Source of the DNA: Isosphaera sp.
GTDB taxonomy: Bacteria; Planctomycetota; Planctomycetia; Gemmatales; Gemmataceae
Length of the DNA stretch: 59,818 nucleotides
Assembly (NCBI GenBank): GCA_013822345.1
Contig: PNKH01000041.1
Coordinates: forward strand, 1 to 59,818
Direction of reading: 5' to 3'
This document shows positions 23,581 to 46,505 of this stretch, piece by piece. Position 1 is the first letter of the stretch; every line of letters starts with the position of its first letter. The notes under the pieces are model-generated. The model did not search any database, was not told the origin of the DNA, and saw only the letters and a list, made by a program, of their open reading frames with translations. The position numbers and the translations under genes are program-made.

Positions 23581-24879
23581 ATGACCCACGACGTCCCGCC
23601 CGTCGCCCGCGGCCTCCTCGCCGCCCTCCGCGACACCACCTTCCGGTCGCTCCGTCACCGCAACTACCGCCGCTACTTCCTCGGCCAGATCGTCTCGTTC
23701 ACCGGGTCGTGGATGCAGTCCGCCGCACTCATGTGGCTCCTGTACGACCGCACCGGCGACCCGCGGTGGCCGGCCTGGCTGCTCGTCGCCCAGGTCGGGC
23801 CGACGCTGCTGCTCGGGCCGTGGGGCGGCGGACTCGCCGACCGCGTGCCGAAGCGCCGCCTCGTCCTCACCACCCAGTCCGCGTTCCTCGCCCACGCCGT
23901 CCTCCTCACCCTCCTCGTCGCCACCGACCTCGCCACCCCGCCGCTCGTCCTCGGGCTGATGGCCGTCAGCGGGGTGATCCAGGCGGCCGACCTCCCGGCC
24001 CGCCTCGCGTTCGTTCCCGACCTGGTGCCGCGCGAGGACCTCATCAACGCCGTCGGGCTGAACTCGCTCCTGTTCAACTCCGCCCGGGCGCTCGGACCGG
24101 CGCTCGCCGCCGGCGTCTTCGCGGCCACCGCCGCGGCCGCCCCGCACCTGCCCGACGGCGTGAACCCGGTCACCGCCGGGGCAGTCGCGTGCTTCGCCCT
24201 GAACGCGGTCAGCTACCTGGCGGTTCTGCTCGCCCTGCGCGGGATCGACGTGCCGGGGGAGGCGGGCGGAAGGAGAGCAGCGGCGGGGTCGGCGTGGGAC
24301 GGGGTGCGGTACCTGCGCGACCACCCGGCGCTCGGCGGGCTGGTGCTCATGACCCTGGTCGTCTGCGTGTTCGGCTGGCCGCTGCTCACCACCCTGCCGG
24401 CGTACACCCGCCAGCACCTCGGGCGGGACGAAACCACGTACAGCCTGCTGGTCAGCGCGGTCGGGGCGGGGGCGCTGCTCGGGGCGCTGACCACCGCCAC
24501 GTTCGGCACCCCGGGCCGGCGGTGGGCGTTCCTGACCGCCGGGGCGGCGGCGGCGGCGGCCGGGATACTCGCGGTGTCGTTCGCCGACGGGGCGGTGCCG
24601 GCGGCGGTCGGGTGCGCGGCCGCCGGGTTCGGGCTGATCCTGTACCTGTCGACCGGCCAGTCGACGGTGCAGCTGGCGGTCCCGGACGCGACGCGGGGGC
24701 GGGTCATGGCCCTGTGGGCGATGACCCTGAGCGCGAGCGCCCCGCTCGGGCACCTGCTGGCCGGGCACGCGGTCGCCGGGTTCGGGGTGGTGCCGGTGCT
24801 GACGGGGATGGCCGCCGGAGTCGGCGCGGCGGCGGCGGCACTCGGCGGGATGCTGGCGTGGCGGGCCAGGAGAGGGTAG
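23581..24879 (+). CDS. MFS transporter, EntS/MFS_3-like
   Basis: A 432-residue major facilitator with about 12 membrane helices. The N-terminus (FRSLRHRNYRRYFLGQIVSFTGSWMQSAALMWLLY) and motif GGGLADRVPKRRLVL are typical of the MFS_3 group, which includes enterobactin exporters and macrolide-efflux-like proteins. The likely role is proton-driven export of a small molecule; the substrate is unknown. The TAG stop is contributed by a family A inverted repeat that begins in the last codons. Confidence 0.88.
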   Translation: MTHDVPPVARGLLAALRDTTFRSLRHRNYRRYFLGQIVSFTGSWMQSAALMWLLYDRTGDPRWPAWLLVAQVGPTLLLGPWGGGLADRVPKRRLVLTTQSAFLAHAVLLTLLVATDLATPPLVLGLMAVSGVIQAADLPARLAFVPDLVPREDLINAVGLNSLLFNSARALGPALAAGVFAATAAAAPHLPDGVNPVTAGAVACFALNAVSYLAVLLALRGIDVPGEAGGRRAAAGSAWDGVRYLRDHPALGGLVLMTLVVCVFGWPLLTTLPAYTRQHLGRDETTYSLLVSAVGAGALLGALTTATFGTPGRRWAFLTAGAAAAAAGILAVSFADGAVPAAVGCAAAGFGLILYLSTGQSTVQLAVPDATRGRVMALWAMTLSASAPLGHLLAGHAVAGFGVVPVLTGMAAGVGAAAAALGGMLAWRARRG

Positions 24880-24973
24880 GGTGGGCCGAGCCGGCGCTTC
24901 GCCGGCGAGTCCCACCACCCCGCGCGACAAGAGGTGGGACTCGCCCTCAGAGCCGGGCTCGGCCCACCCTACC
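24875..24973. repeat. Family A inverted repeat, copy 1
   Basis: The outer arms GGTAGGGTGGGCCGAGCC (from 24875) and their reverse complement (to 24973) are perfect, and the hinge has GAGTCCCACC/GGTGGGACTC; the stretch between is only partly complementary in this copy. The first arm overlaps and supplies the stop codon of the MFS gene. Two further copies are at 29209 and 46411. Confidence 0.93.
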
Positions 24974-24991
24974 CCGCCGAGGACCCGCCGG

Positions 24992-25567
24992 TCACCTCTT
25001 GATCGACCGGCGGAGCTCGTCCAGCTCCTTCGACAACTGGTCGAGCCGCTTCAAGACCTCGTCCTGGTTCGCGGCCGGCTTCGCCGGCTTCACCGGGTCC
25101 TTCACGGGGTCCTTCCCCGCCCCGGCCTTCGCCTTCGCGTCGAGCGCCTTCTGGAGCGCCCCCATCAGGTCCTTCAGCTGGTCGGTGTCCATCCGGTCGA
25201 ACGGGAACCCGGGGCCGAACCCGCCGCGGAAGTCCCAGTTCCCCATCCCGGGCCCGCCGAACCGGAACCCGAAGTCGCCGGGGCCGAACCCGCCCGGGCC
25301 GCCCGGCTTCGCCGGCCCGCCCTTCAGCTCCCGCAGCTTCGCCGTCAGATCCGCCTCCGCCTCCTTCAGCCTCGCCAGCTTCTCCTCGATCGCCCTCACC
25401 TGGTCGGCGACCGCCGGGTCCGGCTTCCCGGCCGGGGCCGGCTTCTGCTCCGGGCCGCGGTCCCTGTCGAACCCCCGGCCCTTGGCGAACGGGGGCTGGG
25501 CCGCGGCCGGGGCGGTGAGCGCCAGGGCGACCGCCGCCGCGAAGGCCATCCGACACGCACGAGACAT
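24992..25567 (-). CDS. Secreted coiled-coil protein with Gly/Phe-rich centre
   Basis: A 191-residue protein: signal peptide (residues 1-23, ending PAAAQ), an N-terminal coiled coil (VADQVRAIEEKLARLKEAEADLTAKLREL), a central GGFGPGDFGFRFGGPGMGNW-type Gly/Phe-rich segment, and a second coiled coil at the C-terminus (DEVLKRLDQLSKELDELRR). A TACAAT hexamer (25655-25650) could serve as its -10. It follows a sensor kinase gene on the same strand. Similar small extracytoplasmic helical proteins can be sensors, but the role here is unknown. Confidence 0.65.
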   Translation of the reverse strand: MSRACRMAFAAAVALALTAPAAAQPPFAKGRGFDRDRGPEQKPAPAGKPDPAVADQVRAIEEKLARLKEAEADLTAKLRELKGGPAKPGGPGGFGPGDFGFRFGGPGMGNWDFRGGFGPGFPFDRMDTDQLKDLMGALQKALDAKAKAGAGKDPVKDPVKPAKPAANQDEVLKRLDQLSKELDELRRSIKR

Positions 25568-25709
25568 CGCGTTCTCCTCGATCGGGTCCCGCGGGGAGGA
25601 AGCCGGACTCAGGGGCGAAACCGGCCGGTGCGGGGATACCCGTGGAGTGATTGTACGCCCCGCGTGATGAGGACGCGGGGAGTGATGTGCGGGCGTGACC
25701 GGGGTGGTT

Positions 25710-28277
25710 TCAGCACCCCGGGAGTTCGAGCCGGAAGCACGCCCCGACGCCGCCGTCCGCCGGGCGGTAGGTGAGCCGCCCGCCGACCACCTCCGCCCAC
25801 GACTTCGCCAGCGCCAGCCCGAGGCCGGCCCCGCCGGCCGTACTGTCCGCGGACGCCCCCCGGCGGAACGGCTTGAAGATGCTCTTCCGCTCCCCGGCCG
25901 GCACCCCCGGCCCGCGGTCCTCCACCTCCAGCACCACCGTGCTCCCGGCCCCCGGCTTCGCCCACAGCCAGATCCGCCGGTCGGCCGCGTCCCGGGTGTA
26001 CTTCCGGGCGTTGTCGATCAGGTTGCCGACGATCTGGGCGACCATCCCCGGGTCGGTCCGGACCTCCCGGTCCGCCGGCAGGGTCGAGACGACGACCAGG
26101 TCCCTCCCGTCCTGCGCAACCCGATCGGCCCACGTCGCCCGGAGCGGGTCGAGCAGGTCGGACACCTTCACCGGCCGGACGTCCCCGCCCTTCCGCCGCT
26201 TCTCCAGCCGGGCGAAGTCGAGGACGTTGTCGATCAGCCGGTGGAGCCGGTCCGACTCGGTCGCCAGGGTGCTCAGGTACTCCTGCCGCTTCGCCTCGTC
26301 GGTGATCATCCCGCTGACCAGCAGGTCGAGGTACAGCCGGAGCGAGGTGAGCGGGGTGCGGAGCTCGTGGGTGACGGCGGACACGAACCGCATCCGCCGC
26401 TCGGCGTGGTCGACCAGCGTCCACCCGCTGAACCCGACGGCGGCCACGGCGAGGATTGCCGCCGCCCAGGCGGTGAGCAGGCCGATCCGCAGCGGGGTCC
26501 ACCCGGCCGGCGGGAGCGGCGGCTCGGGGCCGGGGTCGAGCTGCACCGGCAGGGCGGTCATCGCCCGGTCCGGGGACACCCCGTCCGGGTCCTTGACCGG
26601 CACCAGCCGGGCGTCCGGGAACAGGCCCTTCACCTCCTCTTGGAGGGCGGCCTGGAGCTTCGGCCAGTCGAGGACGACGCCCTGGTAGACGGTCTTGGTG
26701 TCGAACCGGGCGGTCCGCACCAAGACGAGCAGGTCGCCGCCGCCGGGGGCGGTCACCCACTGCGGCCGCATCGACCCGAGTTGGACGACCGGCGGCGGGG
26801 CGGCCGGCTGCGGCGGGCGGTCCTCGCCCGGCGGGGCGGCCGGCGCCGGCGGCGTGATCGCCTCCCGGGCCTTCTCCGCCAGCCGGGCCCGGTTCTCGTC
26901 AACCGACTCGGACAACTTCCCGTCGCCCGGGGCGGGCCCCTTCTTCCAGGCGTCCGTGTCGGACTTCAGGCCGCCCGCGCCCTTCCGCTCGGCCTCGACG
27001 GACCGCAGCAGGTCGGCGAGCCACTCGGCCAGGGCCGCCCGGTCGCGATCGGTCTCCGGCCAACCCCTGCCCGCCTTCTCCTTGTCCCGGTACGCGCCGA
27101 GTGCCGCCCCAGGGTCAGCGGGGGGGGGCACTGTGGCGGGCGCCGGCGGCCCGGCCCCCGGGGCGACCGGCGGGGACGCGGTCGGGGTCGTCACCGGCGG
27201 CCCGGGCGGACCGAGTGGGGCCGGCTTGACCGACGGGTCGGGCGGGGGGGTCACCGCGTTCCGCGGGTCGGCGGGAGGCATCAGGTTCTGTTGGTACGCT
27301 CCCGGCACCGGGTAGTCGTTCGCCTGCTTCGCGTCCTGCATCGCCTTGCCGACAGTCTGGGCGCGGTTCGCCAACTCGGTCCACTCGGGCGTGTCCTTCT
27401 GCCCGCCGCGGGGCGAGATGCGGCCGCCGTACGTGGTGTTGTTCGCCGCGCCCGTCCGGCCGCCGTCGCCCGCCTTCCGCCGGTTCGGGTCGTCGCCGTC
27501 CGCGCGGAGGTTGAGGTTGTTCCCCAGTTGCTGCTGCTGGGCGGCCTGGCCCTCCGGAGACCGCGCGCACAGCTCGTACCCGAACAGCCGGTAGGTGTCC
27601 GGGGTCGGGTCGGCGGCGGTCGGCTTGACCGGGACGGGGTCGACCGGGGGCGGGGGCTTCGGGGGCGGGGTCGGGGCCTGGGCGGGCGGGGGCAGCTCGG
27701 CCGGGTCGGCGTTCACCTCGGTGAACAGCGGGGCGGCGAGCGGCAGGGAGTTGTCCGGGATGGCCCGCTCCCGGGCGGCGAACGTCTCGCAGGCCACCGG
27801 GGCCGGGAACTTCCGGTTCAGGTCGGCGAGCACCTCCTCCCGCCCGCCGTACCAGTTCCGCAGCGGCAACTCCGGCCACGCCCGGCGGACCCGCTCGCCC
27901 TCGGCCGGGTCGGCCGGGGCCTGGTTCGACGCCCACCCGCCGGCCTGGTCGAGCTGGAAGTGGAGCTGCATCCAGTCGGGCAGCGGGGCGGCGATCAGGG
28001 GGGTGGCGATCGGGCCGTACGGCCCGGCCGGGTCCGGGGTGCCGTAGTGGTAGAACGGCCGGCTGTCCTCGACCCCCAGCGCCGGGAGCATCCGCCCGTC
28101 GAGCCGCCACAGGGCGACCCGGAGGTTGTTCCCGAGCTCCGCCCGGGCGGCCGACTCCCGCTGGGCCCGCTCGACCCCGAGGGCGGCGTACGTCACCCAC
28201 CCGAGCCCGGCGAACACCAGCCCGGCCACCAGGAGGAACACCACCGGCCACCCGACCCGACCCGGGAACCGCCTCAT
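25710..28277 (-). CDS. Sensor histidine kinase with large N-terminal extracytoplasmic region
   Basis: An 855-residue histidine kinase. A membrane helix near the N-terminus (about 8-32) and a second at about 594-615 enclose a periplasmic region of some 560 residues that includes long Pro-rich, low-complexity stretches. The catalytic core has the H-box THELRTPL (phosphorylated His637), N-box GNLIDNARKYTRD, G1 DRGPGVP and G2 GAGLGLALAK. The signal is unknown. The response regulator gene lies just upstream; the two are separated by a family C inverted repeat. Confidence 0.93.
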   Translation of the reverse strand: MRRFPGRVGWPVVFLLVAGLVFAGLGWVTYAALGVERAQRESAARAELGNNLRVALWRLDGRMLPALGVEDSRPFYHYGTPDPAGPYGPIATPLIAAPLPDWMQLHFQLDQAGGWASNQAPADPAEGERVRRAWPELPLRNWYGGREEVLADLNRKFPAPVACETFAARERAIPDNSLPLAAPLFTEVNADPAELPPPAQAPTPPPKPPPPVDPVPVKPTAADPTPDTYRLFGYELCARSPEGQAAQQQQLGNNLNLRADGDDPNRRKAGDGGRTGAANNTTYGGRISPRGGQKDTPEWTELANRAQTVGKAMQDAKQANDYPVPGAYQQNLMPPADPRNAVTPPPDPSVKPAPLGPPGPPVTTPTASPPVAPGAGPPAPATVPPPADPGAALGAYRDKEKAGRGWPETDRDRAALAEWLADLLRSVEAERKGAGGLKSDTDAWKKGPAPGDGKLSESVDENRARLAEKAREAITPPAPAAPPGEDRPPQPAAPPPVVQLGSMRPQWVTAPGGGDLLVLVRTARFDTKTVYQGVVLDWPKLQAALQEEVKGLFPDARLVPVKDPDGVSPDRAMTALPVQLDPGPEPPLPPAGWTPLRIGLLTAWAAAILAVAAVGFSGWTLVDHAERRMRFVSAVTHELRTPLTSLRLYLDLLVSGMITDEAKRQEYLSTLATESDRLHRLIDNVLDFARLEKRRKGGDVRPVKVSDLLDPLRATWADRVAQDGRDLVVVSTLPADREVRTDPGMVAQIVGNLIDNARKYTRDAADRRIWLWAKPGAGSTVVLEVEDRGPGVPAGERKSIFKPFRRGASADSTAGGAGLGLALAKSWAEVVGGRLTYRPADGGVGACFRLELPGC

Positions 28278-28290
28278 CGGAACCTCTTCC

Positions 28291-28362
28291 CGGCGGCGAG
28301 CCGGGAGCGTGAGCGACCGGAGAGACGTTGCTCCGGTCGCTCACGCTCCCGGCTCGCCGCCG
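28291..28362. repeat. Family C inverted repeat, copy 1, perfect 32-bp arms
   Basis: Arms 28291-28322 (containing GAGCCGGGAGCGTGAGCGAC) and 28331-28362 are perfect reverse complements with an 8-nt loop. It lies between the response regulator stop (28364) and the kinase start (28277), so it would fold in the mRNA between two partner genes. The second copy is at 54418. Confidence 0.95.
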
Positions 28363-28363
28363 A

Positions 28364-29083
28364 TCACCTGCCGACGGACAGCGCGGGCCCCGCCATGTAC
28401 CCGTGCGCCCGGACCGTGACGATCGCGTCCGGCTGATCGCCGCCCCCGTCGGGGGTCTTGAGCTTCGCCCGCAGCCGGGCCACGTGCATGTCCACCGCCC
28501 GCGTCTCCAGCCCGGCGGTGCCGATCCCCCACACCCGGGAGAGCAGCTCCTCCCGCGACACCGCCCGCTCCCGGTTACTCACCAGGTACTTGAGCAGGGC
28601 CGCCTCGGTCTCCGACAGGTCCGCCCGGCCGCCGCCCGGCCACCGCACCTCGCGGCGGTCCAGGTCGATCGTCCCGCACCCGACCCCGACCAGGTGGACC
28701 TCCGGGACCGCCCGCATCGTCCGCCGCAGGATGGCCTCGACCCGGGCGATCAACTCCTTGGCCGAGAACGGCTTGACCACGTAGTCGTCGGCCCCCATCT
28801 TCAGCCCGCGGACCCGGTCGTCCTCGCTCCCGCGGGCGGTCAGCAGGATGACCGGGCGGGTCGGGTTGGTCCGCCGGAGTTCGGACAGCACCTCCAGCCC
28901 GTCCCGCCTCGGGAGCATGATGTCGAGCAGGACGAGGTCGACCCCGGCGGCCGCCGCCTCGCGGAGGCCGGCCCCGCCGTCCGGGGCCTCGGTCACCTCG
29001 TACCCGCTCAGCCGCAGGGCGTCGGACAGCCCCCGGCGGATCGCCGCCTCGTCCTCGACCACCACGATCCGGGCCTTCGGCAT
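28364..29083 (-). CDS. OmpR-family response regulator
   Basis: A 239-residue regulator. Receiver domain: acidic pocket EDE (residues 10-12), phospho-acceptor Asp54 in LVLLDIMLP, Thr82 in LLTARG, Lys104 in VVKPF. The C-terminal winged helix (ADLSETEAALLKYLVSNRERAVSREELLSRVWG ... VDMHVARLRAKL) binds DNA. Start ATG 29083 (MPKARIVVVEDE); the frame stays open far upstream over other genes. It pairs with the downstream histidine kinase. Confidence 0.95.
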   Translation of the reverse strand: MPKARIVVVEDEAAIRRGLSDALRLSGYEVTEAPDGGAGLREAAAAGVDLVLLDIMLPRRDGLEVLSELRRTNPTRPVILLTARGSEDDRVRGLKMGADDYVVKPFSAKELIARVEAILRRTMRAVPEVHLVGVGCGTIDLDRREVRWPGGGRADLSETEAALLKYLVSNRERAVSREELLSRVWGIGTAGLETRAVDMHVARLRAKLKTPDGGGDQPDAIVTVRAHGYMAGPALSVGR

Positions 29084-29208
29084 GGGACACCCCGCGCGGG
29101 CGCTCGGTGACTGGGTCGGCGGAACCGTGATCGCTCCCAGATAAGACGAGCGGCGCGGCCTTTCTGTTTGCGATTCCGCTGATTCTCCGACCGGTCCCGT
29201 CCGAGATC

Positions 29209-29298
29209 GTAGGGTGGGCCGAGGTCCGCTCCGGACCGAGTCCCACCACCCCGCAGCCCGGTGGGACTCGGTCCGGAGCGGACCTCGGCCCACCCTAC
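29209..29298. repeat. Family A inverted repeat, copy 2, perfect 39-bp arms
   Basis: Arms 29209-29247 and 29260-29298 are perfect reverse complements (outer end GTAGGGTGGGCCGAG, hinge GAGTCCCACC). The middle of the arms (GTCCGCTCCGGACC) differs from the other two copies but is still fully complementary. It sits between the response regulator gene and the 3' end of the DUF4139 gene. Confidence 0.96.
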
Positions 29299-29322
29299 TA
29301 CCGACCCTTGCGACGCCACCGG

Positions 29323-31146
29323 CTACTTCACCAGGAACGGACCGAGGTTGACGTTCTTGTCCAGCTCCATCTTGAACTCGTAGTCGATCGTCAGGGCCTT
29401 CTCCCCGTGCTGCTTCGGGTCGACGGTCACGTCCCACCGCAACAGCCCCTTCGGCTTCTCGTCCCGGGCGTACAGCGGGTCGGCGCTCAGCTCCGGCCTC
29501 GGGTCCTTCAGGGTGACGGCGATGGTCATGGCCGCCTCGGCGTGCGGGGTCCGGTCCCACACCTGGACCGGCACCGGGGCCGTCTTGTAGCTCGAGATCG
29601 TGATCCGGTACTTGAAGCTGAGCACCTGGTTCCCGCCCTGGGTGGTGCGGGTCCGGTCGACCAGGGTCCGCGACGCCTGCAGCTGCGGGTCGACCCCGAA
29701 CCCGACGGTGAACGGCTTCCCGGCCGCCACCAGCGGCACCTTCGCCGACCCGACGAAGTCCCCGGCCAGGTACATCGTCGCCTCGCCCGGCAGCAGCACC
29801 ACCTCGCCGGTGTTGGTCAGGTCGGCGAGGCGGTACACGTTCGGGGTCAGGACCGGGACGGCCTTGTAGTAGAACTTCGGGGCGAAGTCGAGGCGGGTGA
29901 TCTCGACCACCTGCTCGTCGCTCCGGCTCGGGATGCTGATCTTGTTCTTCAGGGTGTAGGTGACGCTCGGGCCGTCGGCCCCGGGGAGGCGGTCCGCCCG
30001 GGCCAGCTCCTCCCGGCTGACGAACAGGTCGCTGAACTGCTCCAGCGCGGCGGCGTCGTTCTGCAGCTTGGCCGCCTCGGCCGCCTTCTTCTGGGCGTAG
30101 TTGTCGGCGACCTGCCCGCGCAACTCCCGGGACATCTTCTCCAGGTCCCCGCGGTAGGCGCTCGGGGACGGCATCCCGCCGCCCGGCCCGCCCGGCCCCG
30201 GGGCGAGCGGGTCGCGCGGGTCGCCGGTCGCGACGACGGCGGCCCCGGCGGGCCCGACGGACACCGCCAGCGCCCGCAGGTCCGGCGGGGCGGCGTTCAA
30301 CAGCGGCTGGGCGGTCGACAGGGTGACGGTCGCGTTCACCCAGTCCTCCCCGGTCTTCTGCTCGACCGCCGCCTGGTACTCGACCGTCACCGGGTCCTTG
30401 TCCTTCCCGCTCGCCCGGAACTTGTACTGCGGCCGCCACGCCGCGTTCCCGACGAGGTAGTTCAGCCGGACCGTCGCCGCCCCGGCCTTCTTGTCCACCA
30501 GGATGACCGCGTCCCGCTCGGTCCGCACCGCCCCGCCGGACTTCTCGTCGAGCACCCGCCGGGCGAACGCGATCTGGGCCTGCACCTCCTCCAGCTGCTG
30601 CTTGACGGCCAACTGGTCCTTGGTCCGCTTCGTCCGGTCTTCCTGGACGAACTTGGCCAGGGCGATGATCTTCTCGGTGTCGAGCTGGCCCTTGTCGGTC
30701 AGGTGCTCGAGCGACTTGGCGGTGAACCCCTCGAGCTTGTCGAGGAGCTTCAGGTTCTCGCCCGCGGCCTTCAGCTCGGACTCGAGCTGCTGCTGCTTGG
30801 CGGCGAGGGTCTTGATCTGGGCGTCGACCTTGCGGACCTCCTCGCGGGTGTCCTCGGCGATCGCCCGGGTGCGGAACCGGACGCTCAGGACGCGGGTCTT
30901 GTCGTCCCCGCCCTCGGCGTACAGCGACGACTGCATCGTGTACGGCGGCATCGGGGAGACGACGACCTCGGCCAGCCCGGCGGCGTCCGGGACGGTCACC
31001 TCGCGGGTGACCAGGGCGGTGTTCGCGTACACCGTGACGGCGGTGATCTTGCTGGCGGCCGGCTTCACCGCCTCGGGCTTTTCCTGTCCCCGCGCGGCGG
31101 TGGTGAGGAGCAGGGCGAGGACGAGCGGGGAGAGGCGGAACTTCAT
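29323..31146 (-). CDS. DUF4139 / MuiA-like secreted protein
   Basis: A 607-residue exported protein: signal peptide (residues 1-20, ending AARGQ), an N-terminal DUF4140-type beta domain (ITAVTVYANTALVTREVTVPDAAGLAEVVV), a long coiled coil (about 95-200), and the C-terminal DUF4139 domain (VRLNYLVGNAAWRPQYKFRA ... DKNVNLGPFLVK). The family is named after the mucoidy inhibitor MuiA; its biochemical role is unknown. A VWA protein gene lies upstream on the same strand, a pairing that suggests envelope functions. Confidence 0.87.
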   Translation of the reverse strand: MKFRLSPLVLALLLTTAARGQEKPEAVKPAASKITAVTVYANTALVTREVTVPDAAGLAEVVVSPMPPYTMQSSLYAEGGDDKTRVLSVRFRTRAIAEDTREEVRKVDAQIKTLAAKQQQLESELKAAGENLKLLDKLEGFTAKSLEHLTDKGQLDTEKIIALAKFVQEDRTKRTKDQLAVKQQLEEVQAQIAFARRVLDEKSGGAVRTERDAVILVDKKAGAATVRLNYLVGNAAWRPQYKFRASGKDKDPVTVEYQAAVEQKTGEDWVNATVTLSTAQPLLNAAPPDLRALAVSVGPAGAAVVATGDPRDPLAPGPGGPGGGMPSPSAYRGDLEKMSRELRGQVADNYAQKKAAEAAKLQNDAAALEQFSDLFVSREELARADRLPGADGPSVTYTLKNKISIPSRSDEQVVEITRLDFAPKFYYKAVPVLTPNVYRLADLTNTGEVVLLPGEATMYLAGDFVGSAKVPLVAAGKPFTVGFGVDPQLQASRTLVDRTRTTQGGNQVLSFKYRITISSYKTAPVPVQVWDRTPHAEAAMTIAVTLKDPRPELSADPLYARDEKPKGLLRWDVTVDPKQHGEKALTIDYEFKMELDKNVNLGPFLVK

Positions 31147-31184
31147 GGGTGGTCGGGTTGTGGTTGGTGTGGTGTCGTGAGAGT

Positions 31185-31265
31185 TCAGCCGCGACGCGGA
31201 GTCTTCGGAGCGGAGCGCGGCGTGGGCCTCGCGCTCCCCTCCGCGGACTCCGGGTCGCGGCTAAA
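31185..31265. repeat. Family B inverted repeat, copy 1 (imperfect)
   Basis: The left arm starting near 31185 (TTCAGCCGCGACGCGGAGTC) and the right arm ending at 31265 (GGGTCGCGGCTAAAC) are largely complementary, with several mismatches. It lies between the VWA and DUF4139 genes. Better-kept copies are at 47969 and 49749. Confidence 0.85.
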
Positions 31266-31274
31266 CGGGGGTGG

Positions 31275-32480: not shown

Positions 32481-32586
32481 CGGGAACTCCTCGGTCGGGG
32501 GCGGGCGGGCGGCGGCTGCCGCCACCCTTCCGACGCGATTGTAACGGCCGCGGATTGGGGGTGCTGTAACGACTTGGTAACCCCTT

Positions 32587-38127: not shown

Positions 38128-38129
38128 AA
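38101..38129 (-). promoter_or_regulatory. Promoter candidate for hflX, TTGTGG-17-TACTAC
   Basis: On the minus strand TTGTGG (38129-38124) and TACTAC (38106-38101) are 17 nt apart. Transcription would begin near 38094, exactly at the edge of the inverted repeat. If this is real, the GTG at 38127 could not be the translation start and a non-standard start downstream (for example CTG 38001) would be needed. Confidence 0.35.
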
Positions 38130-38154
38130 TCCCCAATCTGCCACGCCCGATCCA

Positions 38155-38197
38155 CAAAAAAAGAACCCGCCCGGGGGGTTAGAGTCCCCGGGCGGGT
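38155..38197 (-). terminator. Intrinsic terminator of the giant VWA gene
   Basis: On the minus strand ACCCGCCCGGGG (38197-38186) pairs with CCCCGGGCGGGT (38176-38165), followed by TCTTTTTTTG. It is a textbook intrinsic terminator, 34 nt after the stop codon of the 1500-residue protein gene. Confidence 0.9.
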
Positions 38198-38230
38198 GTG
38201 AGGTTCAGTCCGAACCGTCGATTACCACGA

Positions 38231-41200
38231 TCACCGGCCCTCGCCGCCCGGGAGCAGCGGCACCCGCGGCATCGGGACCGGCTTGCCGGTCCCGAACACC
38301 GGGTTCGCCTCGACCGTCCAGGACTTCCGGTCCGGGTTCACCCGCATCGTCGTCCGGAGGTCGGCCGCGCTCGCCCCGATCCCCGGGATCCGGGCCTCGG
38401 CCGCCGCGTTCACCACCGGCAGGTTCGCCCCGCCGGTCGTCGCCTCCGGCCCGGCGGCCAGCGACCCGAACCCGCCGCCGAACCCGCTCCCGAGCGCCGC
38501 CCCGGTCGACTCCGCCCGGAACTCGTCGGCGTCGGCCGAGACCACCGCCAGTTCCGTCCGGGTCCCGTGGTCCAGCTTCACCTCGACCGACTTCGCGGTC
38601 CGCAGGTCGACCGTCACCAGGTCGTGCGACTCCCGCGGCGTCCCCTTGTACTTCGTGATCTTCAGGGTGGCGGTCTGGCCGACCGGCTGGCCGTAGGCCT
38701 GCCGCACCGTCACCTTGTACGTCCCCTTGAACCCGAGCGCGGCGGTGTACACCTCGGCCCGGCCCTTGTCGTCCGTCTGGTCGAGGATGTCGGACTTCAG
38801 CACCCCGCCGCCGGTCGTCCGCTTGTGGGTCGTCGAGCAGACCGACCCGTTCGGCTCGGCGACGACGAGGTCCAGGTCCGCCGCCCCGGTCCACAGCAAC
38901 TCGACCACCAGGTCGCGGCGGGTCTGCTCGGCCAGGGCGGTCCTCAGCCCGTCCGCCTTCCGCCCGGCCGCCTCGGCGTCGGCGACCAACTTCGGCAGCC
39001 GGGCCCTCACCTTGGCGTGGTAGTCGATCCCGTCGGTCGTGCTCCAGTCCCGGCGGAGCAGGTTGTCGGCCGCCCACGCCACCGCGTCGGTGGCGACCGC
39101 GTTGCCGCCGGCCTCGGCGTAGGCCAGGGCGTTGGCGTAGGCCGCCGGCTGGTCCGGGGCACACGCCGCCGCCCGCCTGCAGAAGGCCACCGCCTGGGCG
39201 TGGTTCTTCAGGTCGGCCTCGGCCTTGGCCGCCCTCAGGTACGCCTTGTGGTCGGTCGGGTCCAGGTCGATCCCGGACACCGCCGCCCGCTCCACCTCGA
39301 CCGGGTTCGCGCTCCCCGTCGCCTGCAGCGCGACGGCCAGCGACTCGTGCGCCCAGGCGTCGGTCGTCAGCCCCTTCCGGAGCGACCCCTTGAGCACCTC
39401 GGCCGCGTGCCCGAACTCGTCCATCTCCATCAGGAACTCGGCCGAGGCGACGATCAGCCCGGGGTCGCTGACGGTCCAGTCGATCGCCTGGGTCCACATC
39501 ACCCGCGGGTCCTTGCTCAGGTTCTTCTTCAGGGCCACCGCGTCGACCTTCGGGTCGGTCAGGGTCGGCTTCCCGGCGGCCACCGCCTTCGGGTCGACGG
39601 CCGGGGCGGCCGGCGGGTCCTTCGGGGCGGCGTTGTTCCCGGCGATCGCCCCGCCGCCCCGCGGGTTGAACGGCGCGGCCGCCATCCCCTCCTGCTTCTT
39701 TAGCTTCACCGTCGCGGCCGGGTGGTACCGGCTCGTCCCGCGGATGATCAGCGCCCGGGCCGGCGGGTAGTACCCCAGCGAGTTGAGCTGGTTGATCGGC
39801 ACGACCGGGACGGCGTTCGGGTCGTTCGGGTCGACCATCTGCCCGGTCTGGGCCCACTCGCCCCGGGCGACCGTCTCGGTGATGATGTTCAGCAGGAGCT
39901 GGCTCTGGTCGCCGCCCTGCAGCCCGAACTGGCCGCCGAGGTTCCCGAACTGGCCGAGCTGCCCGCCGCCGACCTGCAGCCCGCCGGCCCCGAACCCCTG
40001 GTTCACCATCCCGGCGTTCTGCTGCCCGAACATCTGCATCCCTTGCATGCCGAACGGGTTGTTGCCGAAGTTGTTGTTGTTCCCCCCCTGGTTGTTGAAC
40101 CCGTTGTTGAACCCGCCGTTGTTCCCGAAGAAGTTCGCCGCCCCGATCACCTGCCCGAAGATCGCCAGCTGCGACTGCTGGAAGGCCAGGTTCTGGAACA
40201 GCGTCGACTGGTTCACCGAGCTCGGGATCGGGATCACCAGGTCGGCGACCGGGAACACCCGGGTCACCTTCTCCTCCAGCCGGCGGTTGAAGGTGGTGAT
40301 CTCGATGTACTCCGGCCGGACGATGTACGTGTAGTTCAGCGACAGCAGGACGATGTCCAGGTAGGTGCCGAGCTTCAGCCCGCGGAGCTGGGCCGCCCCG
40401 ACCTTCGGCTTCTTCTCGTCCACCGCGTCCGGCTGGGTCGCGTCCTCGGCCTGGATCGCCTGGTAGTTGACCACGAAGGTGAACCCGTGCTGCCGGGCCA
40501 GGTTGTTCATCAGGTCCTTCAGCGACATCTCGTTGATGTTCCCCTCGAGCCGGACCTCGTCGTTCTCCAGCTTGCTCTTGAGCAGCCGCTGGGTCGGGCT
40601 CGGGTTCGGGCCGAGGTTCGAGTTCTCGTAGGCTTCCTTCCGGAGCGAGGTCAGCTCCCGCCACACCGCGGCCGGCGGGAAGTGGACCGGCGGCTCGTCG
40701 GGGTACGGGATGTGCGACTTCTCGGTCTGGAGCATGGTCAGGAGGAACCGCTCCTCGCGGATCCGGGTCAGCTCCCGCCACTCCCGCAGCTGCGTCGCCT
40801 GCTGGCCGATGATGTAGCTGGCGACCGCCTGCGGCGGGATCGACTGGCCGCGGACGACCCGCTCCTGGATCAGGAGCTGGGCCTCCTGGTAGGCCAGCTC
40901 GAACCGGGCCTGCTTCATCAGCTGGCGGAACTGGTCGAGCCGGTTCTTGGTCCGGGCCTCCTCGTCCTGCTGCTGGTCGAACTCGTTGAGCCGCTGCCGG
41001 GACCGGGCGACCGCCTCCCGCTCCAGGGCCGCCTGCCGCTTGATCTCGCCGCCCTTCAGGAAGATCTGCCGCATCACCGCCTCCAGGTCGGTGATGAGCT
41101 GGGCCCGGGCCGCCGGCCCGAGGGCGTCGTACCCGGCCACCTCGTCCCGCTGCCGCTTCAGGTCCTGGTACGCGGCGTCCGGGTCGGTCCGCAGCAGCTG

Positions 41201-42733
41201 CTGGCCGCGGCGGATGGTGGCGTCGACCAGCACCCGGTACCGCTGCTCCTCGACCTGCCGGCGGGCGGCGGCCTCACGGAGCAGGTCGGCGGCGCCGGGC
41301 GGCGGGGCGCCGGCGCCGGCGCCGGGGGCCGGGGGCTCCGGGGCGGCCGGGGCGCCGGCCGGCGGGACCTGGGTCGAGACCTTCTTCTGGATGTCGGCCA
41401 GGGTCATCTTCCCGGCCTTCAGCTTGTCGATCATGGCTACCCCGGCGGCCGCCTCCGGGTCGCGCGGGTCGATCTTCAGGGCCGCCTGGTACAGCTTGGC
41501 CGCGTCGTCCCACTGCGACTTGGTGACGGCCCACACCGCCTGGGTGAGGAACTCGTCCCGGTACAGCTTGACCTGGGTGCTGGCCAGCGCCAGGGCCCGG
41601 TCCGACTGGAGCATCGCCGGGGCTTCCTTGTGCGGGGCGTCGCGCCACTGGTCGAGCATCATGTTCAGGAAGAAGTGCTCGAGCTGCGGGGCCGGCAGGG
41701 CCTCGGTCATCGTCTGGGCGACGGGCCGCCCGGCGACGGTCCCCTTCACCTCCAGCGCGACCTTGGCGGCCGGGTTCGCCAGCTTCCCCATGACGAGCGT
41801 GGTGCGGTCCGCCCGGAGCGGCGGGATCTTCGCCGGGTAGACCTCGGCGACATCCTCGGAGAACTTGAACTTCTCGACCTTCACCACCGGGGCGTCGATC
41901 GCAGCGACCAGCTTCGTCACCCACCCGCCGCGCTTCGCCGGGTCGGCCAGATCCTGGTCGAGGCGGACGACCACCCCGCCGGTCTGGGCGGCCAGGCCGT
42001 GCAGGTTCTGCGGGTTCACCTTCACCCCGAGCGGGACGGCGAAGAACCCGATGTCCTTCGCGTCCATCCGGGTCCCGAGGGCGAGCCGGTCGGCCTCCGT
42101 CACCGGGTTGTACGCGCTCTCGCCGTCGCCCAGGAACAGCACCACCTGCTGCCGGCCGCGGGCCGGGGCCATGCTCGCCAGGGCCTTGTTCAGGGCGTCC
42201 TTCAGGTCGGTCGCCCCGGACCCGTACTCGACATCGGTCAGGGCGACGGCGGCGTCCCGGACCTCCTCGGCGGTCGGCGGGAAGAACCCCTTGGTGAGCG
42301 GCTTGGTGGCGGCCGGGGTGCTGGCGGCCCAGATCGCGACGCGGTCGGCCGGGGTCAGCCCGCCGGCCACGGCGGTGAGGACCTGCCGGGCCTGCTGGAG
42401 CGGCCGGCCGGCCTGGCTGGCGGACACGTCGACGACCACGAGCACGTCCCGCGGGCGGGCCGGCCCGGCCTCGACGGCCGGCTTGACCTGCCAGGCGAAC
42501 AGCGTCTCGCCGTCCCGCGGCTGGTAGGTCAGGGCCGGGAGCTTGCTGAACTTGGTGACCGCGAGGTCCTCGACGAACCGGCCGGTGTCGGCCCGGACCG
42601 GGTCGGGCGGGCGGACCGGGTTGGCCCCCGGCCGCATGTCGCCGAACAGGGTGGTGCCGACGGCGGCGAGGGCGGCGAGGGCCCCCAGGACCACGGGCAC
42701 GACCCGGAGGCGTTGCAGGACTGTCATGCCCAT
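38231..42733 (-). CDS. Giant mosaic VWA / secretin-N-like / DUF2135-like protein
   Basis: A 1500-residue protein (ATG 42733, with AAGGAG just upstream; ATG 42727 is equally possible). Order: N-terminal membrane anchor or signal (about 11-31); VWA domain (about 95-290) with the metal motif DVSAS; helical/TPR-like segment with long coiled coil (about 410-690); a secretin/STN-like small domain (about 725-830: MSLKDLMNNLARQHGFTFVV ... VFPVADLVIPIPSS); an Asn/Gly/Gln-rich, prion-like stretch (about 868-945); the IITETVARGEW domain; TPR-like repeats (about 1085-1200); a YfaP/DUF2135-like beta domain (about 1275-1370: DLDLVVAEPNG). Exported, probably envelope-bound; function unknown. A smaller protein at 44319-45266 shares the secretin-N-like part and the phrase DPNDPNAVP. 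Confidence 0.8.
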   Translation of the reverse strand: MGMTVLQRLRVVPVVLGALAALAAVGTTLFGDMRPGANPVRPPDPVRADTGRFVEDLAVTKFSKLPALTYQPRDGETLFAWQVKPAVEAGPARPRDVLVVVDVSASQAGRPLQQARQVLTAVAGGLTPADRVAIWAASTPAATKPLTKGFFPPTAEEVRDAAVALTDVEYGSGATDLKDALNKALASMAPARGRQQVVLFLGDGESAYNPVTEADRLALGTRMDAKDIGFFAVPLGVKVNPQNLHGLAAQTGGVVVRLDQDLADPAKRGGWVTKLVAAIDAPVVKVEKFKFSEDVAEVYPAKIPPLRADRTTLVMGKLANPAAKVALEVKGTVAGRPVAQTMTEALPAPQLEHFFLNMMLDQWRDAPHKEAPAMLQSDRALALASTQVKLYRDEFLTQAVWAVTKSQWDDAAKLYQAALKIDPRDPEAAAGVAMIDKLKAGKMTLADIQKKVSTQVPPAGAPAAPEPPAPGAGAGAPPPGAADLLREAAARRQVEEQRYRVLVDATIRRGQQLLRTDPDAAYQDLKRQRDEVAGYDALGPAARAQLITDLEAVMRQIFLKGGEIKRQAALEREAVARSRQRLNEFDQQQDEEARTKNRLDQFRQLMKQARFELAYQEAQLLIQERVVRGQSIPPQAVASYIIGQQATQLREWRELTRIREERFLLTMLQTEKSHIPYPDEPPVHFPPAAVWRELTSLRKEAYENSNLGPNPSPTQRLLKSKLENDEVRLEGNINEMSLKDLMNNLARQHGFTFVVNYQAIQAEDATQPDAVDEKKPKVGAAQLRGLKLGTYLDIVLLSLNYTYIVRPEYIEITTFNRRLEEKVTRVFPVADLVIPIPSSVNQSTLFQNLAFQQSQLAIFGQVIGAANFFGNNGGFNNGFNNQGGNNNNFGNNPFGMQGMQMFGQQNAGMVNQGFGAGGLQVGGGQLGQFGNLGGQFGLQGGDQSQLLLNIITETVARGEWAQTGQMVDPNDPNAVPVVPINQLNSLGYYPPARALIIRGTSRYHPAATVKLKKQEGMAAAPFNPRGGGAIAGNNAAPKDPPAAPAVDPKAVAAGKPTLTDPKVDAVALKKNLSKDPRVMWTQAIDWTVSDPGLIVASAEFLMEMDEFGHAAEVLKGSLRKGLTTDAWAHESLAVALQATGSANPVEVERAAVSGIDLDPTDHKAYLRAAKAEADLKNHAQAVAFCRRAAACAPDQPAAYANALAYAEAGGNAVATDAVAWAADNLLRRDWSTTDGIDYHAKVRARLPKLVADAEAAGRKADGLRTALAEQTRRDLVVELLWTGAADLDLVVAEPNGSVCSTTHKRTTGGGVLKSDILDQTDDKGRAEVYTAALGFKGTYKVTVRQAYGQPVGQTATLKITKYKGTPRESHDLVTVDLRTAKSVEVKLDHGTRTELAVVSADADEFRAESTGAALGSGFGGGFGSLAAGPEATTGGANLPVVNAAAEARIPGIGASAADLRTTMRVNPDRKSWTVEANPVFGTGKPVPMPRVPLLPGGEGR

Positions 42734-43277
42734 TCGCTCCTTCAGGGGACGGCGGCGCGGTGGGCCGTCCGGGTGAAGAACAAAGCGTAGCCTGATTTTA
42801 TGGCACGAGCCCCGTTTCCCGCCACGCCAAACCGGTCGGTTTTCGGCGCCGGGCGGTCGGGGTCGGGAAGGCGGGGCCGGCGGCCCACTTCGACCCACGG
42901 GGCAAGTCTACCCGGCGTAACACGCCCTCCCCCCGGCCGTTTGCGTGTTCAGCCGAAGTGGGCGCGGCGGTTCGGGTTACCCGCTGCCAACCTGGCAGGA
43001 CCCGCACGACCGGTCCGGGGGGTTGGATCGAATGGGGTGTCCGAGTCCGAGCGGGGTCCGTGCTTGACCCTCGCCGGCGCTCGGACACGGGCGCCGCGCT
43101 CGCCGGTTTCGATTTGACTTGCCCCCTCCGCGACCTAATCTCGTTCCGTCCGGGTAAACGGATTCCGCCGAACAGGTTGCGACTAACGACCGCCCCCGCA
43201 TCGGGTTCGAGCACGCGGCCCTCCCGCCTCTGCCCGCCCGGGTCCCGGTCGGACGCCCCCCGTGAGAGCCCGTTCCC
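42734..43277. other. 544-bp divergent intergenic region
   Basis: The gap between the divergent giant VWA gene and the coiled-coil gene holds a promoter candidate on the plus strand (43114-43141) and, on the minus strand, a TAAAAT hexamer (42800-42795) that could be the -10 of the VWA gene, without a good -35. No repeat or RNA gene is evident; the reading frames crossing it look like chance. Confidence 0.5.
43114..43141 (+). promoter_or_regulatory. Promoter candidate, TTGACT-16-TAATCT
   Basis: TTGACT (43114-43119) and TAATCT (43136-43141) are separated by 16 nt. Transcription would start near 43148, leaving a leader of about 130 nt before the coiled-coil gene. Confidence 0.45.
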
Positions 43278-44243
43278 ATGTCCCACCCCGACCCGGCGCC
43301 CGAATCTCCGTCGATCACCGCCGCGGAACTCCGCCGCCGACTCCTGACCACCACCCCTCCGCCCCCCGGCGGCCCCCCGGCCGCGGACGGGGAGGCCGCG
43401 GACACCCCGGCCCCGGCCGACGCCCCGCCGGCGTGGTCCCCGAACAGCGCGCAGGACCTGCTGGCCCGGCTCCGGATGCCGGGCAAGTCGGGGCCGATCC
43501 CGGTCCCGGCGAGCCGCCCGCAGCCGGCCGTCCCGGTCGCCACCGACCCGTCCCCGGCCCGGTCGTCGGTCAACCGCCGGACCGGTCAGTCGGTCTCCCG
43601 CCTCGACGGCGCCCTGAACCAACTGGCCGGGCTCCCCGACGGGAGCCGGTACCTGGACGACTCGCCGCACGGCGAGGTGCTCCGGCTGAAGGCCGAGAAC
43701 AAGGAGCTGCGGACCCTGCTGGAGGAGATGAAGCACCTGCTCCAGGAGGCGAGCGACACCGAGCAGAAGCTGACCGCCAAGGAGAAGGAGTTCGAGGCGG
43801 CGGCGGCGGCGAAGGACGCCCAGATCGAGGAGCTGAGTGCGCAGCTCGGGGCGATCGAGGAGCAGATCGCCAAGGGCGAGCTGGCCCCGCCCCCGCCGGT
43901 CCCGAAGACCCGGACCGAGCTGGAGGAGTGGAGCGACGAGTTGGAGAAGGAGAGCGCCAAGCTCCAGCAGGCCCGGAAGAAGCTGGACGAGGACCGGCGG
44001 CAGCTGCGGGAGGACGAGGAGGCGTCGGAGACGCAGATGAAGGAGATGGAGATCGCGATGGCCCGGGACCGGGCCCTGATCGCCCGGCAGGAGACCGAGC
44101 TGAAGCGGCTCTCGGCCGAGATCCAGCACGAGCTGGAGCTGATGCAGCGCGGCGACACCGGCCTGCGGGACCAGATGGCGAAGTTCCAGCGCCGCGCCCA
44201 GGAGGTGATGGTCAAGCCGCCGGGGACGAACGGGCGGAAGTGA
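43278..44243 (+). CDS. Coiled-coil protein with Pro-rich N-terminus
   Basis: A 321-residue cytoplasmic protein. Residues 1-110 are Pro/Ala-rich and probably disordered, with a short conserved-looking [19 protein letters not shown] and SVSRLDGALNQLAGLPDGSRYL. Residues about 130-305 form a long, almost continuous coiled coil (EVLRLKAENKELRTLLEEMKHLLQEA ... RQETELKRLSAEIQHELELMQRG) broken by a Pro-rich PPPPVPKTR hinge. Divergently transcribed from the giant VWA gene, so the two could share regulation. Function unknown. Confidence 0.72.
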   Translation: MSHPDPAPESPSITAAELRRRLLTTTPPPPGGPPAADGEAADTPAPADAPPAWSPNSAQDLLARLRMPGKSGPIPVPASRPQPAVPVATDPSPARSSVNRRTGQSVSRLDGALNQLAGLPDGSRYLDDSPHGEVLRLKAENKELRTLLEEMKHLLQEASDTEQKLTAKEKEFEAAAAAKDAQIEELSAQLGAIEEQIAKGELAPPPPVPKTRTELEEWSDELEKESAKLQQARKKLDEDRRQLREDEEASETQMKEMEIAMARDRALIARQETELKRLSAEIQHELELMQRGDTGLRDQMAKFQRRAQEVMVKPPGTNGRK

Positions 44244-44251
44244 CAACTCCT

Positions 44252-44305
44252 GGGTGGGGCAGACATTCCTGTCTGCCCCCGGCAGGCAAGAATGCCTGCC
44301 CCACC
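44252..44305. repeat. Family D inverted repeat, copy 1 (imperfect)
   Basis: GGGTGGGGCAGACATTCCTG (from 44252) pairs with the segment ending CTGCCCCACCC at 44305, with a few mismatches; each arm is also palindromic on its own (GCAGACATTCCTGTCTGC; GCAGGCAAGAATGCCTGC). It fills the gap between two convergent genes. A perfect copy is at 55220. Confidence 0.88.
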
Positions 44306-44318
44306 CGGTTGCGTCCCG

Positions 44319-45266
44319 TCACTTCTTCAGCGCCTTCCGCAGCTCCTCGACCTCCGCCTTCAGCGCCGCGATCTCGTCCTTCAGCCCGGCGACCCGCTCG
44401 GCCCGGGCCGGCAGCAACCCGTTGCCGAAGAACTGCTGCGGGTTCAGGGCCGCGTCCGCGGCGAGCTTGGCCTTCGCCTTGTCGGCTGCCTTCTTCTCCA
44501 CCTCCGCGGCCCGCTCCCGGGTGGTCACCGTCAGGGTGTTCGCGTCCTCGATCACCCCGAGGTCGGCCAGCTCGCACACCGTCCGGACGGCGGCGTCGAC
44601 CGGGGTGTTGGCGAACCGGACGGTCAGCCGGGTGTCCGCCTTGTTCCCGACCAGCGGGGACAGGTTGACCGTCGCCCCGGTGCCGGTCGCGATCTCGTCC
44701 AGGATGTCGGACACCGCGACCGCCTTGAACGCTTTCGTGACCACCGCCCGCTTGATCAGCGGCTTCGACTTCTCCAGGTCGGTGATGGACAGGATCGGGA
44801 CGGCGTTCGGGTCGTTCGGGTCGGCCGGTGACGCGTCGTTGGAGGTGTCCTGCCGCACCCGGGTCTCGTACAGCCAGAACCCGAGGGTCGCGATCCGGAC
44901 CCGGTCCGGGTAGACCAGGAACTTCGCGTTCGCCTGGTCGCACAGGATGGTGAGGAGCGTCTCCAGCTTCACGTCCGCGAGCTTCGGCAGCCGGACCGTG
45001 CCGGGCACTTGCTCGACCCCGTCGTCCGACTCCAGCAGGTACCTCAGCACCTCCCGGTCGACCGTCAGCGGCAGGTCGAACTTCTCGGCGAGCATCTTGA
45101 CCGCGTCGGGGAACTTCCCCTCGAACGCCTTGTCCAGGGTGACCCGGGCGGCGAGCCGCTTGGCCAAGTCGGCGGCGCCGTCGGTGGTGGCCTTCGGGTC
45201 GGCCGGCTTGGGTTGCTGCGCGGGGGCCGGCGCGAGCGCCAGCAGGAGTACGGCGACGGCGGACAT
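44319..45266 (-). CDS. Secreted secretin-N-like protein
   Basis: A 315-residue exported protein: signal peptide (residues 1-17, ending APAQQ), two small alpha/beta modules that resemble secretin N-domain or STN folds (KMLAEKFDLPLTVDREVLRYLL ... LETLLTILCDQANAKFLVYPDRVRI; FKAVAVSDILDEIATGTGATVNLSPLVGNKADTRLTVRFANTPVDAAVRTV), and a C-terminal coiled coil (VAGLKDEIAALKAEVEELRKALKK). It contains DPNDPNAVP, also found in the giant VWA protein at 38231-42733. Start ATG 45266, with GGAGG upstream. No outer-membrane secretin domain is present. Confidence 0.72.
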   Translation of the reverse strand: MSAVAVLLLALAPAPAQQPKPADPKATTDGAADLAKRLAARVTLDKAFEGKFPDAVKMLAEKFDLPLTVDREVLRYLLESDDGVEQVPGTVRLPKLADVKLETLLTILCDQANAKFLVYPDRVRIATLGFWLYETRVRQDTSNDASPADPNDPNAVPILSITDLEKSKPLIKRAVVTKAFKAVAVSDILDEIATGTGATVNLSPLVGNKADTRLTVRFANTPVDAAVRTVCELADLGVIEDANTLTVTTRERAAEVEKKAADKAKAKLAADAALNPQQFFGNGLLPARAERVAGLKDEIAALKAEVEELRKALKK

Positions 45267-45416
45267 GAGGGCCTCCGGGTGCGGGCGGACGGGTGCGGGA
45301 CGTGGCAGCAGAGGTTAACGTACCGCCCGCCGCCGGCGTTGGCGGGTTCGCCGCCCCGCGAGCCGGTCGCTACCCTGAACCCTCACGATCCCGCTCTCCC
45401 ACACGAGGTCCCTCCC

Positions 45417-46406
45417 ATGTCGAAGGTGGTGCGCGTCGCGGTGACCGGGGCGGCCGGCCGGGTGTCCAGCAGCCTGATCGTCCGGCTCGCGTCCGGCGAG
45501 GTGTTCGGCCCGGACACGAAGGTCGTCCTGCAACTGCTCGAGCTGCCCGTGGCGCTGAAGAACCTCGAAGGGGCGATGTACGAGCTGCAGGACTGCGGGT
45601 TCCCGACCCTCCAGGACGTGATCGTCACCGACGACGCGGACAAGGCGTTCAAGGACTGCAACTGGGCGCTCCTGGTCGGGGCGGCCCCGCGCGGCCCGGG
45701 CGAGCAGCGGAGCGACCTCATCAAGAAGAACGGCCCGATCTTCGTCGGCCAGGGGAAGGCGATCGCCAAGAACGCCGCGGCCGACGTGCGGATCCTGGTC
45801 GTCGGCAACCCGTGCAACACGAACTGCCTGATCGCCCAGCGGAACGGCCGGGAGGTGCCGGCCGACCGGTGGCACGCGATGACCCGGCTCGACCACAACC
45901 GGGCCGTGTCGGCGCTGGCGGCGAAGGCGGGGGTGGGGAACGCCGCGGTGACGTGCATGACCATCTGGGGGAACCACTCGAACACCCAGTACCCGGACTT
46001 CACCAACGCGAAGGTGAACGGCAAGCCGGCGACCGAGGTGGTCACCGACCGGGCTTGGTTGGAAGGGACGTTCGTCCCGGCGACGCAGGAGCGGGGCAAG
46101 TTCATCATCGACACCACCAAGGTGTCGTCGTCGTTCTCGGCCGCGAACGGGGCGATCGACCACGTCAAGAGCTGCGTCCGCGGCACGCCGGCCGGCGACT
46201 GGACGAGTGCGGCGCTGGTGTCGAAGGGCGAGTACGGGGTGCCGGCCGGGCTGGTGTTCGGCTACCCGGTCACGGCGACCGGGAACGGCGACTGGAAGGT
46301 GGTCGACGGGCTGAAGCTGGACGCGTTCGGGCAGGCGAAGTTCAAGGCCACGCTCGACGAGTTGCTGAAGGAGCAGGAGGTGGTGAAGGACCTGTTGCCG
46401 GGGTGA
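45417..46406 (+). CDS. mdh: Malate dehydrogenase
   Basis: A 329-residue NAD-dependent malate dehydrogenase of the cytosolic/MDH type 2 group, converting malate to oxaloacetate. Motifs: Rossmann VAVTGAAGRVSSSL, substrate loop GAAPRGPGEQRSDLIKKNG, VVGNPCNTNCLIA, and the catalytic WGNHSNTQYPDF with TRLDHNRA. The nucleotide loop reads GAAGRVSSS instead of the common GAAGQIGYS. The ATG 45417 lacks a strong ribosome site. It could feed oxaloacetate to the citrate synthase-like enzyme encoded at 1424-2554. Confidence 0.95.
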   Translation: MSKVVRVAVTGAAGRVSSSLIVRLASGEVFGPDTKVVLQLLELPVALKNLEGAMYELQDCGFPTLQDVIVTDDADKAFKDCNWALLVGAAPRGPGEQRSDLIKKNGPIFVGQGKAIAKNAAADVRILVVGNPCNTNCLIAQRNGREVPADRWHAMTRLDHNRAVSALAAKAGVGNAAVTCMTIWGNHSNTQYPDFTNAKVNGKPATEVVTDRAWLEGTFVPATQERGKFIIDTTKVSSSFSAANGAIDHVKSCVRGTPAGDWTSAALVSKGEYGVPAGLVFGYPVTATGNGDWKVVDGLKLDAFGQAKFKATLDELLKEQEVVKDLLPG

Positions 46407-46410
46407 CCCC

Positions 46411-46505
46411 GGTAGGGTGGGCCGAGCCGGCGCCTCGCCGGCGAGTCCCACCGGGAGGGCGGTGGTGGGACTCGCCGGCGAGGCGCCGGCTCGGCCCACC
46501 CTACC
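46411..46505. repeat. Family A inverted repeat, copy 3, perfect 42-bp arms
   Basis: Arms 46411-46452 and 46464-46505 are perfect reverse complements (outer end GGTAGGGTGGGCCGAGCC, hinge GAGTCCCACC). It starts 4 nt after the mdh stop codon. Confidence 0.96.

Follow-up and report, generated by a model that had tools for sequence, protein, structure and literature searches.

The window analysed here, a stretch of 59,818 nucleotides from Isosphaera sp., is contig 41 of a genome (G000) of 7.47 Mb in 226 contigs, and it carries three copies of a palindrome that we call family A. Very probably, the family consists of high-copy repetitive extragenic palindromic (REP) sequences that start with GTAG, stand in head-to-head pairs and are spread by a REP-associated tyrosine transposase (RAYT). 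The middle of each arm, here called the tip, would be able to change provided that its own bases still pair, and a minority of palindromes may owe their identical tips to the copying of one arm onto the other.

The three palindromes of the window (24876–24972, 29209–29298 and 46412–46504) are real and far beyond chance. All six arms contain GTAGGGTGGGCCGAG and GAGTCCCACC, in agreement with the constant ends and hinge described in the earlier note; the outer end as quoted there is common to all copies except for an extra leading G, which is missing from the copy at 29209. The perfect arm match reported for two copies was also observed (39 of 39 bases at 29209 and 42 of 42 at 46411), and in the copy at 24875 the middles are unlike, CCGGCGCTTCGCCGG versus CCCGGCTCTGAGGG. 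When the 16-base end was searched in the whole genome with up to two mismatches, 437 matches were found, compared with 17 for a reversed-pattern control, and GTAGGGTGGGNCGAG gave 320 exact matches and its control none. Judged by eye from mechanical lists of open reading frames, and for these three copies only, the palindromes sit at or beyond the ends of plausible frames. One open frame, of 505 aa, takes its TAG stop from the GTAG of the first palindrome (24876–24879). Rfam at its gathering scores placed no family over the palindromes of the window, two tRNAs being the sole matches.

Each family A arm is a GTAG-tagged REP hairpin, with a conserved lower stem and a high copy number, and each palindrome is a bacterial interspersed mosaic element (BIME), also termed a REP doublet forming a hairpin (REPIN), in which two REPs stand head-to-head across 9–23 nt. 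The arm has four parts: GTAG, a lower stem of fixed sequence (GGTGGG/CCCACC), an internal loop (4x4) and an upper stem that varies and pairs with itself. Folding of single arms was predicted with DNA parameters for six examples, five from family A and one from a sister family, and GTAG was left unpaired in all six. The four long-tip family A arms were predicted to form the 6-bp GGTGGG/CCCACC stem and the 4x4 internal loop, topped by an upper stem whose loop has 3 to 8 bases, and the short TCTT form was predicted to have a shorter top. In the covariation count, which was restricted to 39 distinct arms of 41 bases, changes on both sides occurred in five of the seven upper-helix pairs and in none of the six lower-helix pairs. 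Double-change cells, which are sequences and not independent events, numbered 19, compared with 3.1 after shuffling (none of 500 shuffles was as high) and at most 6 for slid structures. In addition, 81% of the positions pair in the 73 distinct tip cores; for cores of equal length, pairing reached 82%, versus 73% when halves of different cores were mated (maximum 77% in 500 trials). The lower stem is nearly invariant, and the upper stem varies with compensating changes. The earlier note had reasoned that the middle of one arm needs the other arm to pair, a premise that falls because within a single arm the middle finds its own pairing partner, and with it disappears much of the apparent need for arm-to-arm copying.

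Elements of this kind are already known. The text of PMC3733652 describes GTAG repeats, their head-to-head dimers and variable self-complementary loops; the families in it are mostly intergenic, and in some of them there is more than one type of loop, the inner parts being self-complementary. Family A resembles them in its unpaired GTAG at one end, its stem-loop, its high copy number and its head-to-head dimers. It differs in that GTAGGGTG is absent from the running text of that paper (as distinct from its figure of 24 consensus sequences), and in a broad set of tips that is common to a sister family with another lower stem. Family A is also like the Escherichia coli REP/BIME system (4er8, PMC8266576) in its GTAG, lower stem, internal mismatches and variable upper stem-loop, although its sequence and mismatches are different and the related transposase is known here by sequence likeness. 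As stated in the accessible text of PMC8266576, the activity of E. coli TnpA-REP requires GTAG, the bulge and lower-stem positions, while a swap of the upper stem or loop is tolerated and its removal abolishes binding, the role being structural only; in other REP groups, some loop positions matter. We infer that family A has a comparable division into constant base, internal loop and free tip, and the purely structural role of the E. coli upper stem-loop would be the reason why the middle is free to vary if it pairs with itself. The REPINs of Pseudomonas fluorescens, as far as the available text of PMC3116915 describes them, likewise hold two REPs in inverted orientation on either side of a spacer, move as units and are linked to RAYTs; those doublets are typically of identical REP groups, whereas the tips of family A usually differ.

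The frequency of matching arms was determined in a sample of 2,420,699 of the 7,468,024 bases, about a third of the genome. It comprises C1–C4 and C7 whole, C5, C6, C8 and C10 largely, from their start, the window, and C40 for its RAYT; the remaining tiles were picked for elements listed by the searches, and the sample is therefore element-rich. From the first arm set, 10 of 194 arm starts were left out because no closing stem could be recognised, and a later, looser finder left out arms with more than three changes overall or more than one in the closing stem. Pairs with spacers longer than 40 nt were excluded. The sample holds 264 family A arms, which carry 91 different tips; 54 are unpaired and the others form 105 head-to-head pairs, with a spacer of 10–14 nt in 89 of them. 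Whole arms are identical in 17 pairs and tips in 27; the rule that middles are always complementary within a copy, as the earlier note proposed, fails because the middles are mismatched in as many as 78 of the 105 palindromes, an outcome that the note itself had named as refuting its reading.

A process that couples the arms is nonetheless supported for a minority of copies. Among pairs with long tips, 20 of 95 are identical, an approximately fourfold excess over the mean of 4.6 on random re-pairing (maximum 14 in 20,000 trials), and 23 of the 95 are identical in the tip core alone (5.1 expected). Tip-core distances of 1, 2 and 3 were observed in 6, 0 and 4 pairs, respectively, versus 7.8, 8.2 and 11.6 on re-pairing (10 of 95 together, with 27.6 expected), and 62 of the 95 pairs lie at a distance of four or more. 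Because the distances are two-peaked, the arms of most pairs either agree in full or are plainly unlike. Exactly two copies were counted for each of eight tips in this third of the genome, so that more may exist elsewhere; for five of these tips, the two copies are the arms of one palindrome (0.03 expected). In the 12 pairs with a CCGGCG/CGCCGG stem in both arms, the three loop bases agree in 11 (4.6 expected, p = 1e-4). Since these loop bases are unpaired within the arm and yet match, and since some tips are private to the two arms of one palindrome, the minority behaves as if one arm had been copied. The claim of the earlier note that one arm is copied onto the other is supported for this minority, but not for the majority of pairs, whose arms are unlike, nor for variants of the constant part, which are weighed below.

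The identical minority may have arisen by arm-to-arm copying, most likely by template switching during replication between the inverted arms, which would act now and then on palindromes whose arms are normally unlike. Judging from the sequences, we place the chance of this origin at about even. According to the accessible text of PMC8604942, template switching homogenises the arms of inverted repeats in yeast, where imperfect arms of quasipalindromes are made identical, while the case made here is drawn from patterns within one genome; PMC7202029 and PMC8794818 reportedly deal with the correction of quasipalindromes by template switching as well. With such a process reported, a dedicated arm-copying enzyme, also suggested in the earlier note, is not needed. 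The excess of matching arms alone speaks for such an enzyme and no result points to one, the search for candidate genes having covered the RAYTs only, and we consider it highly improbable. Our literature searches found no paper joining gemmata with repetitive extragenic palindromic. Among the matches listed for REPIN or BIME together with gene conversion or template switching, arm copying in REPs was absent from the titles and the starts of the abstracts. A review of 1988 that is cited in PMC3116915, going by its title, reportedly asks about the evolution of REPs by gene conversion.

The spacers of the 105 pairs cluster into lineages of 16, 10, 4 and 3 copies plus seven pairs, in both orientations; 47 of the 105 fall in lineages, compared with 2.6 when their letters were shuffled. 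Because these lineages are found at many sites, the palindromes spread as units, and the flanks of the first 78 pairs appear unrelated by eye. In the largest lineage, the arms are unlike in 14 of 16 copies, as they are in 7 of 10 in the second largest, and the remaining copies have identical arms; identical arms occur in seven lineage members. The side of the spacer on which each tip lies departs from random (p = 0.012, 30 palindromes in the three lineages of at least four copies). Within lineages, arms therefore seem to be unlike as a rule and to turn identical from time to time. An alternative is that whole-unit copying alone is at work, with rare identical-arm palindromes that then spread, their matches being inherited and not made. 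The spacer lineages do show spread as units, and the alleles that match in other palindrome families are small in number and occur widely, but the five tips that occupy both arms of one palindrome are found only twice in the sample, and same-tip palindromes with identical arms carry different spacers. We therefore consider this alternative unlikely. As to the source of the spacers, an origin from flanking DNA was considered and rejected, as 13 of 105 have an 8-mer in common with their own flank, compared with a mean of 17.8 with the flanks of other copies. No target-site duplication was observed: none of the 105 pairs has a candidate of 5, 6, 7 or 8 nt, and 1, 3 and 7 have one of 4, 3 and 2 nt, respectively.

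By analogy with known systems, a TnpA-REP-like transposase would spread the family A elements, now or formerly. The REP-associated tyrosine transposase model gave seven matches at five places in G000, and the Y1_Tnp model added two places (C75 and C35). The best match, G000:C14:52532-52980, scored 140 bits for its larger piece and is similar to E. coli TnpA-REP (4er8, 4e-31); its best-matching relatives are planctomycete, at 61% (a Pirellulales), 60% (a Phycisphaerae) and 59% (a Gemmataceae bacterium). This fragment was matched in the NCBIfam and PDB searches and had no match in Pfam. Sister-family BIMEs lie on both sides of it. The places at C75, C14:8378, C35 and C40 adjoin other palindrome families, that at C28 has one hairpin, and no palindrome was seen beside the match at C49. 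In four planctomycete loci (L186, L188, L191 and L193, out of 80 fetched), REPs of the form GTAGGGTGGG[TC]CGA stand on both sides of the RAYT. Thus, a RAYT is flanked on its two sides by the same REP for the sister family in G000 and for the family-A-type REP in these four loci, and no such arrangement was found for family A in G000. Across the 62 loci with full flanks, 138 GTAG hairpins lie within 500 bp of the RAYT versus 7 in the two outermost stretches of 500 bp; GTAG hairpins are therefore concentrated at RAYTs. Two further kinds of palindrome present in the window also flank RAYTs: the GGCAGGCAGGAATGCC type (55214–55318 and 44252–44306) at G000:C14:8378-8761, and GGGCGAGGCTCC (15367–15426) at G000:C40:57907-58268, where the match is split over two frames.

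Several observations weigh against family A being RAYT-spread with an arm-copied minority. The sequence TAGGGTGGG stands beside none of the seven RAYT or Y1_Tnp places examined in G000 (L009–L013, L034, L051, L063 and C40, of which three loci overlap others) and in none of 30 RAYT loci, from G000 and its relatives, with flanks of up to 1.5 kb; the reading frame of the best RAYT match is also split. Of 50 variants of the constant part, 2 are common to both arms, where re-pairing would give 0.64, namely 2 of 12 in same-tip pairs and none of 38 in unlike-tip pairs, so single-arm mutations are common and stay single-armed. Self-complementarity of the flanks and the spacer is not above expectation, and arm copying does not extend there. 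In families D, E, F, G, H and J, single-palindrome variants, taken over whole arms, were confined to one arm in 40 cases and occupied both arms in 7. Finally, lineage spacers are rarer in same-tip pairs (8 of 30) than in unlike pairs (39 of 75), which would suit a separate origin and leaves room for one in some of the same-tip pairs.

This last result would also be explained if identical arms were the original state, each palindrome starting as the inverted duplicate of a single REP and diverging later. Several palindromes with identical arms and the same tip have spacers that are unrelated by eye, and the 23 identical pairs with the 6 at one change could be recent births, lightly mutated. However, stepwise divergence should fill the distances from 1 to 3, which are depleted relative to re-pairing (an expectation that is no model of divergence), the two largest lineages are mostly unlike-armed, and the placing of the tips about the spacer is non-random (in the three lineages of four or more copies). 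An origin of the identical arms by inverted duplication is possible, but we find it doubtful, and we retain arm copying as the likelier source of the minority.

The other palindrome families allow a further alternative to be weighed. Family D has seven variable bases, E has two and F mostly two, and these agree between the arms in 33 of 34, 32 of 35 and 44 of 45 pairs, respectively (13.1, 13.4 and 14.8 expected), and family G, with one variable base, agrees in 49 of 52 (41.0 expected). In our reading, a few subtypes of these families spread as wholes, and private changes in both arms account for a smaller part. Selection for a long hairpin of the whole palindrome would keep the arms complementary through compensating mutations, of the kind remarked on for P. 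fluorescens REPINs in the accessible text of PMC3116915, and the near-complete matching in D, E and F is what it would produce. In family A, though, unlike tips are tolerated in most palindromes, so full pairing is not needed there, and such selection seems an improbable cause of the identical minority. In the window, a second palindrome family, TAGCCGCGACGCGG...GGAGCGGAGCGCG, is present at 49749–49841, 47969–48055 and 31183–31266, and its middles agree in 33 of 34 sampled pairs.

Arm matching was also observed in the sister family (GTAGGGTGCG...GACGACGCACC, window 53815–53913), whose lower stem has GGTGCG. Four of its 18 pairs in the sample have identical arms (0.3 expected, maximum 4 in 5,000 shuffles). 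Two of these four, C5:31551 and C52:8447, share a 10-base spacer, which is inverted in one relative to the other, and are told apart by a single loop base that has changed in both arms; C7:39069 carries this spacer too, but its arms are unlike. In the first 1.98 Mb, several tips are common to family A, the sister family and a third element, GGGGAGAGGTCG...CGGGTGAGGGG. This element is a purine-rich repeat that bears some family A tips and whose outer parts are unable to pair together. We tentatively suggest that REP tips may be cassettes, replaced whole, shared across families with different lower stems and sometimes copied from arm to arm in one step; as tips are short and GC-rich, their sharing between families could also be due to convergence. 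The arms and spacers of both families in the window are listed in Table 1.

Table 1. Arms and spacers of family A and of its sister family (A') in the window
Feature	Position	Strand	Remark
REP arm, family A, tip CCGGCGCTTCGCCGG	24876..24916	+	
Spacer ACCCCGCGCGACAAGA	24917..24932		Lineage common to spacers at C26, C42 and C131
REP arm, family A, tip CCCGGCTCTGAGGG	24933..24972	-	Unlike partner
REP arm, family A, tip GTCCGCTCCGGAC	29209..29247	+	
Spacer ACCCCGCAGCCC	29248..29259		Lineage of 10 copies, 7 with unlike arms
REP arm, family A	29260..29298	-	Tip same as partner's
REP arm, family A, tip CCGGCGCCTCGCCGG	46412..46452	+	
Spacer GGGAGGGCGGT	46453..46463		
REP arm, family A	46464..46504	-	Tip same as partner's
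REP arm, sister family A' (GTAGGGTGCGGTCGAG...GACGACGCACC)	53815..53859	+	Family flanking the RAYT at G000:C14
Partner arm, sister family A'	53870..53913	-	Imperfect match to first arm

Among 18 relatives from the genus, the richest has 24 exact copies, compared with 320 in G000. Three relatives (L168–L183) have a related REP, GTAGGGTGGGTCGAG, with a different closing stem, mostly GGCCCACC or GCCCCACC, and with tips that also differ. The genome appears rich in long palindromes, as judged from the G000 sample only: 331 perfect inverted repeats with arms of at least 25 bases and loops of up to 30 were found in its 2.42 Mb, of which 211 lay outside the labels then in use, some being later labelled G or H and a few A.

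Altogether, a puzzling palindrome family is explained as a known kind of transposase-linked repeat; its members are taken as new ones, and they come with a measured excess of matching arms. The puzzle that remains is that identical tips stand in both arms several times more often than chance would give. With hundreds of copies, constant ends and variable tips, the family is a natural data set in which arm-to-arm copying can be measured, and if the tips are indeed cassettes, a mobile hairpin would have a tip that evolves by other processes than its recognition part.

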